NCBI GenBank assembly: GCA_903930515.1
Contig: CAIYYW010000392.1
Coordinates: 1-17,654, forward strand
DNA: 17,654 nt
Direction of reading: 5' to 3'
DNA from: an uncultured delta proteobacterium
GTDB lineage: Bacteria; RBG-13-61-14; DRUE01
Positions 1,583 to 9,797 of the stretch are shown piece by piece. Made by a program: the position numbers and the translations under genes. Numbering within the stretch: position 1 is the stretch's first letter; each line of letters starts with the position of its first letter. A model generated the notes under the pieces. That model had not been told where the DNA came from. It saw nothing but the letters and a program-made list of their open reading frames with translations, and searched no databases.

Positions 1583-1866
1583 ATAAAGAAGGCAATAATT
1601 CTTGCGATCCTGGTCGGTATCATCAAAAGGGCGCGAATAAAGATGTGACCTTTAGCTGCCGGGTGGTGGTGGTCTATCAAAAAACCGATCTGGCGGTGTT
1701 TGACGACAAGAAGGACATGGCGATTGGTCCCAATGCCGCGAAGATTTTTTCCTTTGAATTCAAAAACAAGACCGCGGGAAGCGGCAAATACTATGTGGTG
1801 GCCATTGTCCGGAACACGGAAAGCGGGATGGAGATTTTCAAGATTATGGAAGTGGTTTCGCCTTAG
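1583..1866 (+). pseudogene. Decayed paralogue of the 981-1361 exported protein
   Basis: From about 1630 to 1866 one frame encodes 79 residues that align without gaps to the C-terminal 79 residues of the 981-1361 product. My hand count is 41 identities, including CR..YQKT, DDK, PN.AK, GSG.Y and the terminal VVSP. The 5' end is broken. A strong Shine-Dalgarno (AGGAGG, 1571-1576) precedes ATA rather than ATG at 1583, in a frame reading KKAIILAILVG, a signal-peptide-like start. That frame meets TGA at 1646, while the mature domain is in a different frame. Compared with the intact copy, about 97 nt are missing between signal and mature domain, which shifts the frame. A short protein from GTG at 1645 is possible but has no ribosome binding site. 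A sequencing or assembly error cannot be excluded, but it would have to explain both the start codon and the deletion. Confidence 0.75.
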
Positions 1867-2045: not shown

Positions 2046-2603
2046 CTAAATAAATTGCTCAAACCGGTCCCGGCTCGCCTTGCAGATCGGGCAGACCCCG
2101 GGCGGCTTTTCCCGCGCGCATAAATACCCGCAGACCTTGCACCGCCAGACCGGGTATGGCAAAGTCCCCTTGATCCCCGCGCCAACCTCCGGCCGCGATC
2201 CCTCCCGGGCCGCTCCCCCCGGCGATGCTTGTGCTTGAGCCGATCCCGCGGTTTCTCTCTTCACCGGCCTCCGCTCCGGGATGGACCCGATCTTTTCCTT
2301 CAAGTCAACCACTTCCTGCGAAACATACAGCCCGCAGTAGCAGGTGTTAAAATCATCCAAATCCGGATCGCGGTAGTCGCACGGGCAAATAATGTCCAGG
2401 TCGGCCGCCCTCTCCCCGGCCCCCAGCCGGCACGGGCAGGACTGATAGCCATAGCGCTTCTGGTTGATCAGCAAGCCCCGGACCAGGTCGCGGGTCAACC
2501 CCGGATCCGGATTCAAATGGTATCCGCCTTCCTTGGCCTCCTGGTCCAGCCTCTGATACAGCCGGTCAACCTCGGCCTCAATGCCCGGCCCCTGCCCGCT
2601 CAT
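2046..2603 (-). CDS. Ferredoxin-thioredoxin/disulfide reductase catalytic chain fused to a rubredoxin domain
   Basis: The 185-residue product is translated from an ATG that overlaps the stop of the upstream glutaredoxin gene (ATGA, 4-bp overlap). Residues about 1-108 are an FTR beta-type catalytic domain. The six hallmark cysteines are C56-P-C58, C73-P-C75 and C88-Y-C90, where the family builds a 4Fe-4S cluster next to a redox-active disulfide; the last motif is CYC rather than the usual CHC. Residues about 109-148 are a Pro/Ala/Gly/Arg-rich linker. Residues about 150-185 are a short rubredoxin-like domain with CKVCGY (C155, C158) and CPIC (C171, C174), ending in DRFEQF as in rubrerythrin tails. 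Family knowledge: such proteins take electrons from ferredoxin and reduce protein disulfides; a rubredoxin-bearing version (FDR) is known from Methanosarcina. Coupling to a glutaredoxin suggests that protein as partner (inference). Confidence 0.92.
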
Positions 2604-2881
2604 TCTCCCAGGGCCTCCCGGATCTGGTCGTCCTTGAATCCCACAATGCACCTGCCCCGGTCAATCACCAGGGTGGGAAAGGAACCCTGCGGATTCCATT
2701 TCTCAACCTCCTTCATAATCTCCTTCTTCTCCGAAGCGCTCAGCAAATCCACATCAACATACGAGAACTCAACCCCCAACTCCTCCAGCAAAGACTTGGT
2801 CTTCCGGCACCAGCCGCAAGTGCTCAGGGCATAAAGCATCACCTGCCCCCGATTCTTCCCTTTCACCTTCTTCAATTCCAT
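2600..2881 (-). CDS. Glutaredoxin-like thiol-disulfide protein (CGWC active site)
   Basis: The 93-residue cytoplasmic protein has a thioredoxin fold of glutaredoxin size. Visible features are the dithiol motif C22-G-W-C25 after a beta strand (VMLYALS), the FPT motif (residues 68-70) carrying the expected cis-proline, and the C-terminal [11 protein letters not shown] helix typical of NrdH/Grx-like proteins. The start is supported by AGGAGG six bases before the ATG. It is the first gene of a two-gene unit with the FTR-rubredoxin fusion, whose ATG overlaps its stop codon. The likely role is a disulfide shuttle reduced by the downstream ferredoxin-dependent reductase instead of glutathione (inference). 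CGWC differs from the classic CPYC glutaredoxin site. Confidence 0.9.
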
Positions 2882-3209
2882 CCCCTATCCTCCTTTGCTT
2901 CGGTTTCCCATCCATCCTTTTTCTCTTTTACCCTAACATAATCCGGTTGGAATGCCAAGGTATCCCCTCCCGGTTGCGCCCTTTGAACTTGTCCTTCGCT
3001 AAACCTTTACGCTCCATAAAAAATCTCCCGCATCAATCAACGAAACCACCCGATGCGACACGCTTGAGCAGCCTTGAGCCGATTCCCTTCCCGAGCGCCG
3101 GGATTAAAATTTCCCCCATATTCGGGGGGGAATCCGGCCGGACCCAGCAGCCGATACCTGCGCGACTTTGCCCCATAATCCCCCCGCAACCGCTTTTTTC
3201 GCCAAGAAC

Positions 3210-3817: not shown

Positions 3818-4072
3818 TCAGCGATAGACCTCTTTCCGATGACCGATGGCGGAGACTGTGATTACTCTGGATTTGGTGTCCATCTCATAAAGAATTCTAT
3901 AATCCCCAACCCGCAAGCGATATCCGGGATGACCTTTGAGTTTGATAGCGCCATCGGGAAAAGGTTTTTCTTTGAGCGAAAACAGCTTTTCCAGGATTCG
4001 TTCTTGATCCTGAGTTTGCAGTTTTTCCAGCTCTTTTTCCGCGCTCCGCTTGAGTTCTACCTGCCAGCTCAC
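3818..4072 (-). CDS. RelE/ParE-superfamily toxin of a type II toxin-antitoxin pair
   Basis: From GTG 4072, which overlaps the antitoxin stop as GTGA, the product has 84 residues, the normal size of the family. A GTG at 4081 three codons upstream is an alternative. The features are those of RelE/ParE toxins: an N-terminal strand WQVELKRSAEKELEKL, two helices with QERILEKLFSLKEKP, then a beta sheet with LKGHPGYRLRVGDYRILYE and a C-terminal HRKEVYR. The Arg residues in YRLRVGDYRI and the terminal His/Arg/Tyr cluster are where RelE enzymes place mRNA-cleavage residues (established for the family). Together with the upstream gene it forms an antitoxin-first operon. Whether it is a ribosome-dependent RNase or a gyrase poison cannot be told by eye; the HRKEVYR end favours the RelE side. 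Confidence 0.9.
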   Translation of the reverse strand: MSWQVELKRSAEKELEKLQTQDQERILEKLFSLKEKPFPDGAIKLKGHPGYRLRVGDYRILYEMDTKSRVITVSAIGHRKEVYR

Positions 4073-4275
4073 TGATTGCACTTTTTATTTCTCAGCCGCT
4101 CCGCAACCTGCGGGAGGGGACGGCTGGGCTCGCCCCGGCGGGATTCAATTACCATTATATCCTGCTGGTCTTTGCTCAGCATCCCCTGGGCAAAGAGCTT
4201 TTTAAACAGCTCCTGCCGCTTCTTGGGTTCCAATCCCCTGATGACCGTGAACAGTCCCTCTATAACTTGATCCAT
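4069..4275 (-). CDS. Antitoxin of the RelE/ParE-type pair
   Basis: The product has 68 residues. The start at 4275 is chosen because AGAGG lies eight bases upstream and because the upstream in-frame ATGs (4326, 4299) fall inside the promoter. The N-terminal half is a predicted helix (MDQVIEGLFTVIRGL, then KKRQELFKKLF). The C-terminal half, QDIMVIESRRGEPSRPLPQVAERL, is charged and proline-containing and is likely the flexible toxin-binding tail. It does not show a clear ribbon-helix-helix or HTH signature, so its fold is open. The call rests on size, on its position directly before and overlapping the toxin gene, and on similarity to small partners often found with RelE-type toxins. Autoregulation at the promoter at 4298-4326 would be expected. 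Confidence 0.75.
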   Translation of the reverse strand: MDQVIEGLFTVIRGLEPKKRQELFKKLFAQGMLSKDQQDIMVIESRRGEPSRPLPQVAERLRNKKCNQ

Positions 4276-4297
4276 TTTGATATCCTCTCTAAATGCC

Positions 4298-4326
4298 ATT
4301 TTAGGATAAATCGCTCTCCGGCTCAA
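4298..4326 (-). promoter_or_regulatory. Promoter of the toxin-antitoxin operon
   Basis: On the minus strand, TTGAGC (4326-4321) and TAAAAT (4303-4298) are separated by 17 bp. It is divergent from the cobalamin promoter at 4350. Its position fixes the antitoxin start at 4275, since longer starts would lie within the promoter. Confidence 0.55.
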
Positions 4327-7489: not shown

Positions 7490-9016
7490 CTAAACGCGGA
7501 TCGGGTATTTTCCGAATTTCTTCGCGGCAATGATCATAGCCCGGTAGTTCTCGGGCTTGACATAGTCCGGGACAGAGTTTGACGCGGCAAGCCCATAGCC
7601 GCCTCCGGGCGCCAGCTCCCGGATTTTTTTCTTCACCTCTTGCTCCACCTCCTCCATTGTGCCGCGGGTGAGGGTGTGCTCAAGATCTATATTGCCGAAA
7701 ATACAAAAGCGGTTCCCATGCCTTTTCTTCAGCTCCACGATATCCATTGCCTGGGGCTCAACCGGATGCAGGGCCTTGATCCCGCATTCGGCCAAATCGT
7801 CCAGCACCGGCAGGATATTTCCGTCGGAGTGAAAGATAAAAGGCAGATGCGCGTCGGCGAGAATCTCTCCGATCCGCCGGTACCAGGGGAACACATACTT
7901 GCGGTAGATTTTGGGCGAGACCAGGGTTCCCTCGGTGTAAGCCAGGTCGTCTGACATAAAGACCGCGCCGAGCCGGGGCGCCTGGACGAGCCGCTTGGTT
8001 ATTTTCACATAGGTGGACCCGATGATCTCAAAGAGGGCTTCCACCACGGCCGGGTCGTCGTAAAGGGCGTAAGAGAAATTCTCAAGCCCCATTGACTGGG
8101 AGGTGTTTCCGAAAATGGCTGCCGGGGAGAGCATGCCGACTATCTTCATCTTGGGGGGCAGGAGTGCGGCAACCTCGGAAAAAGACGAGAAATCCACATC
8201 CTCCGCTTTGGGCCAGGGGAATTTCTCAACATCCTTAAGGTTCTTGATGATGCCCTCGCTCTCAATGAGCCAGGCGCGAGTCCGGTCGCCATCGGAAAGG
8301 GCGCCGTCCGCGTCCGGGGCGGTCCGCATCAGCCGCGGGGTGAAAAACGGAGGAATCACCGGCACAAAGTCGTAGCCCGCGCGGATATAGAACTCAACCT
8401 CGTCCCGGGCGGAACTAATCTCCCGGCCAAGGAACCACTCCTGGATCGGGATCGCGATCTCGGCCTCAAAAAGCGGCACCCGGTCCGGCTCCTCCCTTCG
8501 GAGCGCCACCTCCAGCCGACCGAAGTCAGGGTCCAACGACACGCCCCCCAGTTCTCCCTCCACTTTGAGCGGACCAGCGCGCTCTCTCCCCCTCTCGCCG
8601 GCCAGTCTTCTCTTGATCCTTGACCACCGAGACCCCGGCTCGGACTCGCCGATGGTATCGCTCACCTTGATGCTGGCGCCCCCGTACTCGTTGGTGATGA
8701 AGCTGATTTTGAGGATATGCCTGCCATTGGAAAGATGATCGCCCGCGACCCGGATCACGAGGCTGGAGTCCTTTGCAAATGCAATCGGTCTTGCCAGCGC
8801 GCCATCGGAAAAGGAGATGGGCTGACCGGAAAGGATGGGTTTAATCTTGTCCGCCTGGTAGAGCCTGCCGTCAACATCAACGCTGAGGTCGCGCATGCCG
8901 CTGATCTGGAGCGGGGTCATCCGGTTCACAAAGCAGAATTCAAATCCGTCATCAATATTGCGGAGGCTCCCCCGTTGATAGACCTTGCTGACCAGAAATC
9001 CAGGTATATAAACCAT
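7490..9016 (-). CDS. UroD/MtaA-family methyltransferase-like protein with extra N-terminal beta-rich domain
   Basis: The 508-residue protein has two parts. Residues about 164-505 are a uroporphyrinogen-decarboxylase-superfamily TIM barrel: RLEVALRREEPDRVP at its start, YIRAGYDFVPV, SDDLAYTEGTLVSPKIYRKY, then FHSDGNILPVLDDL (His396), LHPVEPQAMDI and FCIFGNIDLEHTL. These fit the branch of corrinoid/CoM-type methyltransferases and unknown relatives more than haem-pathway HemE, which is shorter and has different N-terminal motifs. Residues about 1-125 are an added beta-rich domain (GSLRNIDDGFEF...NRMTPLQISGM...VDVDG), reminiscent of DUF6379-like domains of C-glycoside-processing enzymes; this is a weak match from memory. 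A charged linker joins them. The start has an excellent AGGAGGAGAGG site. No corrinoid protein or substrate-specific MtaB-like gene is nearby in the window; the convergent B12 importer is the only hint of corrinoid use. Confidence 0.85.
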   Translation of the reverse strand: MVYIPGFLVSKVYQRGSLRNIDDGFEFCFVNRMTPLQISGMRDLSVDVDGRLYQADKIKPILSGQPISFSDGALARPIAFAKDSSLVIRVAGDHLSNGRHILKISFITNEYGGASIKVSDTIGESEPGSRWSRIKRRLAGERGRERAGPLKVEGELGGVSLDPDFGRLEVALRREEPDRVPLFEAEIAIPIQEWFLGREISSARDEVEFYIRAGYDFVPVIPPFFTPRLMRTAPDADGALSDGDRTRAWLIESEGIIKNLKDVEKFPWPKAEDVDFSSFSEVAALLPPKMKIVGMLSPAAIFGNTSQSMGLENFSYALYDDPAVVEALFEIIGSTYVKITKRLVQAPRLGAVFMSDDLAYTEGTLVSPKIYRKYVFPWYRRIGEILADAHLPFIFHSDGNILPVLDDLAECGIKALHPVEPQAMDIVELKKRHGNRFCIFGNIDLEHTLTRGTMEEVEQEVKKKIRELAPGGGYGLAASNSVPDYVKPENYRAMIIAAKKFGKYPIRV

Positions 9017-9182: not shown

Positions 9183-9797
9183 TTATGGACAAATAAAATT
9201 AACATTGTTCATTGTTTTAGCTCCGCATTTAGTACAGCAACTGGGGCAGTATTCTGCGCAATCCTCACCGCACCCCCAATATAAATCAGTTGTCCATGCG
9301 CCATAGCATATTTTGTCACCCCTAACGCAGCGTATTTTTACATATTCAGGATCATCATAATAAGTGAAATAATAAGGTCCCCAATAAACATGTCTTTTCA
9401 TATCATACAATTCCAAGGTTGGACTAACGCCGTCAGGACATTGGTCGGTGTACCACAACTTCATTGTCTTTTTAACTATAGTATAGTCTATCACCTCATC
9501 CGTTTCCGAAGAAAACTGACTGTCAGAGTCTGCCTTTGCCTCGCCTTCGCCGTCTCTAAAAGCAGCCGAGATCTGAGAAGGCTGAAGATCGGAGTCTCCG
9601 CTTTCTCCACAAGTAGCCGAGATCTGAGGCTGAAGATCGGAGTCCAGCCATACCCCGTCTCCGTTTCCTCCACAAACAGCCGGGACCGGAGAAAACTGAA
9701 CATCGGAGTCTCCCCCTACCCCGCTCCCACTGTCTGCGCAAGCAGCCAGGAAAAGAATAATCCCCAAAATCCCCACAATTTTTCCCCTTGTTCTCAT
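9183..9797 (-). CDS. Lipoprotein with degenerate internal repeats and a cysteine-rich C-terminus, unknown function
   Basis: The 204-residue product has a lipoprotein signal (hydrophobic 8-18, lipobox LAAC, Cys20) after a strong AGAGGAGG site. Residues about 29-100 are low complexity with an approximate repeat around DSDxQxSxxxA and Cys-Gly/Gly-Asp, acidic and probably disordered; the DNA shows matching tandem repeats. Residues about 105-204 are Tyr/Trp-rich with ten cysteines (120, 157, 164, 176, 180, 184, 187, 188, 191, 203), including CGEDCAEYCPSCCTKCG. That suggests a small disulfide-knotted or metal-binding extracytoplasmic domain. I do not recognise the family. Composition is less GC-rich than its neighbours in the C-terminal part, so recent acquisition is possible. 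A promoter lies about 190 bp upstream. Confidence 0.8.
   Translation of the reverse strand: MRTRGKIVGILGIILFLAACADSGSGVGGDSDVQFSPVPAVCGGNGDGVWLDSDLQPQISATCGESGDSDLQPSQISAAFRDGEGEAKADSDSQFSSETDEVIDYTIVKKTMKLWYTDQCPDGVSPTLELYDMKRHVYWGPYYFTYYDDPEYVKIRCVRGDKICYGAWTTDLYWGCGEDCAEYCPSCCTKCGAKTMNNVNFICP
9564..9757. repeat. Degenerate tandem repeat inside the lipoprotein gene
   Basis: The segment AGCCGAGATCTGAG recurs exactly at 9564 and 9615, with diverged copies at 9678 (AGCCGGGACCGGAG) and 9744 (AGCCAGG). A second segment, GAAGATCGGAGTC (diverged to GAACATCGGAGTC), lies between them. Spacings are 51, 63 and 66 bp, all multiples of three, so length changes keep the reading frame. Confidence 0.7.

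Follow-up and report, generated by a model that had tools for sequence, protein, structure and literature searches.

The window, a stretch of 17,654 nucleotides from the draft genome of an uncultured delta proteobacterium, carries two overlapping genes on its minus strand. The first encodes a glutaredoxin-like protein (Grx) of 93 residues, and the second a protein of 185 residues in which an FTR catalytic domain is fused to a rubredoxin-like domain and which we assign as a ferredoxin:disulfide reductase (FDR). The features of the locus are listed below; the motifs and the overlap were read directly from the sequence.

2046–2603, minus strand: FDR gene, 185 aa (full-length match to PDB entry 4tpu, E = 6.3e-64)
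2049–2156, minus strand: rubredoxin-like domain, residues 150–185, with C155, C158, C171 and C174 (Pfam RUBY_RBDX at residues 153–182, 1.6e-13; 72% identity to the 4tpu domain)
2157–2258, minus strand: Pro/Ala/Gly-rich linker, about residues 116–149 (pLDDT below 50 at residues 120–139)
2259–2603, minus strand: FTR catalytic domain, residues 1–115 (Pfam FeThRed_B at residues 13–103, 7.3e-22; model compared with 7pwe_B)
2334–2438, minus strand: six FTR cysteines, C56/58, C73/75 and C88/90 (CPC, CPC, CYC)
2600–2603, minus strand: ATGA overlap of Grx stop and FDR start
2600–2881, minus strand: glutaredoxin-like (methanoredoxin-like) gene, 93 aa (Pfam Glutaredoxin, 1e-13; PDB entry 5cax, E = 3.3e-29)
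2807–2818, minus strand: CGWC redox site, C22 and C25 of Grx
2889–2893, minus strand: GGAGG resembling a Shine-Dalgarno sequence, 7 nt upstream of the Grx ATG (assigned from the consensus)

All three Pfam matches lie above the curated cut-offs; no NCBIfam model exceeded its cut-off for either gene. The cysteines of the 185-aa protein are at positions 56, 58, 73, 75, 88, 90, 155, 158, 162, 171 and 174. The second and third FTR motifs are 12 residues apart, and the rubredoxin cysteines follow the pattern C155-x2-C158-x12-C171-x2-C174 at the C-terminal end. A sequence-only reading of this DNA had proposed that one protein holds six FTR cysteines and a rubredoxin domain, and both the sequence and the profile searches that it had recommended bear this out. 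Its claim that the reductase ATG overlaps the stop of the glutaredoxin-like gene is likewise correct, with the ATG at 2601–2603, the TGA at 2600–2602 and the ATGA common to both. The interval 2046–2881 that it gave is that of the gene pair and not of the fusion alone.

Because the assembly is a draft in 401 contigs, a chance open reading frame or an assembly artefact could be considered, but the full-length matches (E = 1e-22 to 1e-64) and a gene order kept across many phyla make the probability of this negligible, and the Pfam E-values rule out chance. The FDR/Grx pair is real and probably functional.

Elsewhere in the window, at 3818–4326 (minus strand), a small ORF without a Pfam match overlaps the ParE-type toxin gene downstream of it (Pfam 8.6e-12); the two are likely a toxin-antitoxin pair. 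An ORF at 7490–9016 (minus strand) has an unusual combination of a uroporphyrinogen-decarboxylase-like domain and a separate N-terminal HMG-CoA_red_N match (Pfam 9.8e-14), and a predicted lipoprotein-like ORF at 9183–9797 (minus strand) has internal SDLQPQISA/SDLQPSQISA repeats and no Pfam match. Two similar small proteins at 942–1361 and 1645–1866 (plus strand) are apparently tandem copies; the second has no proper start or signal region and appears to be truncated or frameshifted. A periplasmic-binding-protein/ABC transporter cluster is also present, with B12 as its possible, inferred substrate.

The fusion matches 4tpu, titled ‘ferredoxin-dependent disulfide reductase from Methanosarcina acetivorans’, from end to end at 59% identity (62% in the FTR domain). 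The two proteins share an FTR domain followed by a C-terminal rubredoxin domain, the ten metal/redox cysteines, the CYC motif and the motif spacing, and they differ in the interdomain linker, which is longer in the window protein. Since the alignment gaps are confined to this linker, the CYC motif and the longer spacing between motifs 2 and 3 are those of FDR. Thus, the fusion is, by sequence assignment, a ferredoxin:disulfide reductase with a built-in rubredoxin, an enzyme already described and whose prototype has been crystallised and assayed.

Plant-type FTR has a separate variable subunit, lacks a rubredoxin, carries a CHC motif and has its motifs 2 and 3 closer together. The window protein shares its catalytic fold and six cysteines but has CYC instead of CHC and carries a rubredoxin domain in the same chain. 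In FDR, tyrosine is said to replace the FTR histidine, and the rubredoxin centre reportedly mediates electron transfer from ferredoxin.

For Grx, the best matches among structural entries were 5cax (55% identity), listed as Glutaredoxin and which we take to be the methanoredoxin of M. acetivorans, and its relative 3nzn. The window protein has CGWC where methanoredoxin has CVWC. Like these proteins, it belongs to the Glutaredoxin family, has a CxWC site and adjoins an FDR gene, the features by which we recognise a methanoredoxin-like glutaredoxin. A further entry, 7pwe from Desulfotalea psychrophila, is titled a glutaredoxin/ferredoxin disulfide reductase fusion protein and matches both genes; it joins such Grx and FTR-type modules in one polypeptide, in the order of the two window genes, and its matched part, in a 196-residue chain, ends before any rubredoxin domain.

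An AlphaFold model of the window fusion (pLDDT 78, pTM 0.56) predicts the FTR core and the rubredoxin domain with confidence and the linker between them, with its low-confidence stretch, as disordered. Its FTR domain superposes on 7pwe_B with Z = 14.2 and 2.2 Å over 105 residues. Against 4tpu, Z is 13.9, and superposition of both domains gives an rmsd of 19.6–19.8 Å with the domains placed differently, so their relative placement is not fixed by the model. The linker may be a flexible tether between the two domains; the model is compatible with this, and the domain swinging envisaged in the sequence-only reading is not demonstrated by it.

To place the pair in its family, we scanned one genome per species with two strict peptide patterns, which yielded 458 confirmed relatives, and analysed the best 80 of the 458. 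FDR homologues are reportedly widespread in Bacteria, and these 80 loci come from Chloroflexi, WOR-3, Zixibacteria, Aminicenantes, Spirochaetes, Elusimicrobia, Deltaproteobacteria, Methanomicrobiales, Methanosarcina and others. Having been picked by similarity to the rubredoxin-bearing form, they are uninformative on the frequency of rubredoxin-less forms. In one genome of an independent panel (G025), an FTR-type protein beside Grx had no matched rubredoxin part. At another locus (L006/L022; G008:C261:5036-5534), FDR changes frame before its rubredoxin part, which contains a single in-frame TGA, indicating a frameshift or fusion decay.

Full-motif sequences from the best 80 loci and the panel genomes numbered 82. 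The third motif is CYC in 78 of these and CFC in the other 4, and the motif spacing is 14 and 12 in all 82; the six FTR cysteines are invariant across 40 sequences. CYC and the longer spacing, which had been singled out as departures from plant FTR, are therefore regular FDR traits. The long Pro/Ala/Gly linker was rightly noted: from the third motif to the first rubredoxin cysteine (C90 to C155) it measures 64 residues, at the long end of the family range of 45–64 (median 49).

Of the 80 loci, which span many bacterial and archaeal phyla, 79 have a Grx relative directly upstream of FDR and on its strand. Measured from the Grx stop codon to the FDR start codon, the distance is −4 in 51 of 78 cases, the overlap seen in the window, and −1 in 11, and falls between −11 and 0 in 69. 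In an independent panel of 60 genomes, Grx was immediately upstream in all five with an FDR-type match (E below 1e-18), and in Methanosarcina sp. Ant1 (L079) close homologues of 5cax/3nzn and of 4tpu are adjacent in the same order. In the remaining locus (L035), no Grx was detected near FDR, which there follows a P-type ATPase-like frame; in L066, Grx is split over two frames. The active site varies among the 79 Grx relatives (CGWC in 35, CVWC in 22, CIWC in 13). Had the fusion and the glutaredoxin gene failed to co-occur, the sequence-only reading would have lost its footing; the survey favours their pairing by a wide margin.

Conserved third genes other than peroxiredoxin are patchy; most clusters are shadow ORFs of the pair or belong to loci of Methanomicrobiales and related groups. 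At 8 of the 80 loci (L035, L036, L053, L063, L071, L081, L084 and L104), a peroxiredoxin gene, sometimes accompanied by a nitroreductase, lies within a few kb of FDR on the same strand. These proteins are possible clients; the window itself has no peroxiredoxin beside the pair, so the pattern is not counted as evidence here.

We consider it highly probable that the pair consists of FDR and a methanoredoxin/glutaredoxin-like partner working as a ferredoxin-to-glutaredoxin relay. The two-gene path proposed earlier is supported by the pairing in 79 of 80 loci and by the M. acetivorans homologues, which are reported to work together: where it cites Prakash 2018, PMC6491703 describes methanoredoxin as utilising coenzyme M and FDR. 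What is observed here is the homology, the order of the domains and the conservation of both the cysteines and the gene pairing; the FDR structure and methanoredoxin's use of FDR are taken from the M. acetivorans homologues, and by analogy the window copy would act as these do. Both FTR and FDR are [4Fe-4S] enzymes (PMC7278568). Reduced ferredoxin would deliver single electrons to the predicted rubredoxin-like iron centre. From there they would pass to a [4Fe-4S] cluster beside the redox-active disulfide in the FTR domain, where the CYC tyrosine is predicted to sit in the position that histidine has in plant FTR. Dithiol exchange with the FTR domain would then reduce the CGWC disulfide of Grx, and reduced Grx would reduce client proteins, putatively the B12-dependent ribonucleotide reductase (RNR), peroxiredoxin-like proteins and possibly the single thioredoxin.

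The host draft genome is 93.5% complete, and absences from it are no proof. Within it, there is no second FTR-type gene besides the FDR of the pair. Searches for glutathione synthesis gave no match to GCS2, Glu_cys_ligase or GSH-S_ATP, with positive controls detected, in agreement with the proposed path without glutathione; the glutathione synthesis that would mark a glutathione-dependent glutaredoxin was thus not found in the draft. No protein exceeded the TIGR01292 cut-off for canonical TrxB, which 12 of 14 control genomes reach. The draft has one clear thioredoxin (NCBIfam equivalog model, contig C229), a second, marginal Thioredoxin-domain match at a contig edge, a CoA-disulfide-reductase-like protein and a B12-dependent RNR (NrdJ). 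FDR has been named as electron donor to the class III RNR of M. barkeri (Wei 2015, as cited in PMC6262447); this client was rejected for the host, in whose draft no NRDD domain was found.

FDR might instead mainly reduce the cell's thioredoxin, with Grx as a minor or specialised partner. The single thioredoxin and missing TrxB of the draft are in keeping with this, and one of the thioredoxins of M. acetivorans is a substrate of its FDR (PMC6262447), so the adjoining Grx need not be the sole substrate. However, the thioredoxin is encoded on a different contig, and it is the Grx gene that overlaps FDR and is paired with it almost throughout the family, and we regard this assignment as unlikely. 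The strict pairing, together with the natural Grx/FDR fusion and the lack of detected glutathione-synthesis genes in the draft, also makes it very improbable that Grx is reduced by a low-molecular-weight thiol while FDR serves other disulfides, even though methanoredoxin of M. acetivorans is coenzyme M-dependent and accepts this thiol (PMC7278568) and the host has the CoA-disulfide-reductase-like protein.

With the relay from FDR to Grx as the preferred assignment, the lack of detected glutathione synthesis, class III RNR and TrxB in the draft, together with one thioredoxin and a B12-dependent RNR, suggests that the pair is possibly the main disulfide-reducing route, through which most electrons may reach protein disulfides in this host. 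That the pair takes the place of the NADPH-thioredoxin reductase system as well as that of glutathione, with ferredoxin driving cytosolic disulfide reduction including that of the B12-dependent RNR, is conceivable but rather doubtful.

The system is already known, and the pair in the window is one more copy, an ordinary member of a well-spread anaerobe system. The CYC motif, the spacing, the fused rubredoxin and the adjoining CGWC glutaredoxin form an FDR signature and make this a clean annotation case. That the pairing is near-universal across phyla supports the view that glutaredoxin systems driven by ferredoxin are common among anaerobes, and the missing TrxB and glutathione genes would make the host a test case for a cell that lives on disulfide reduction driven by ferredoxin.
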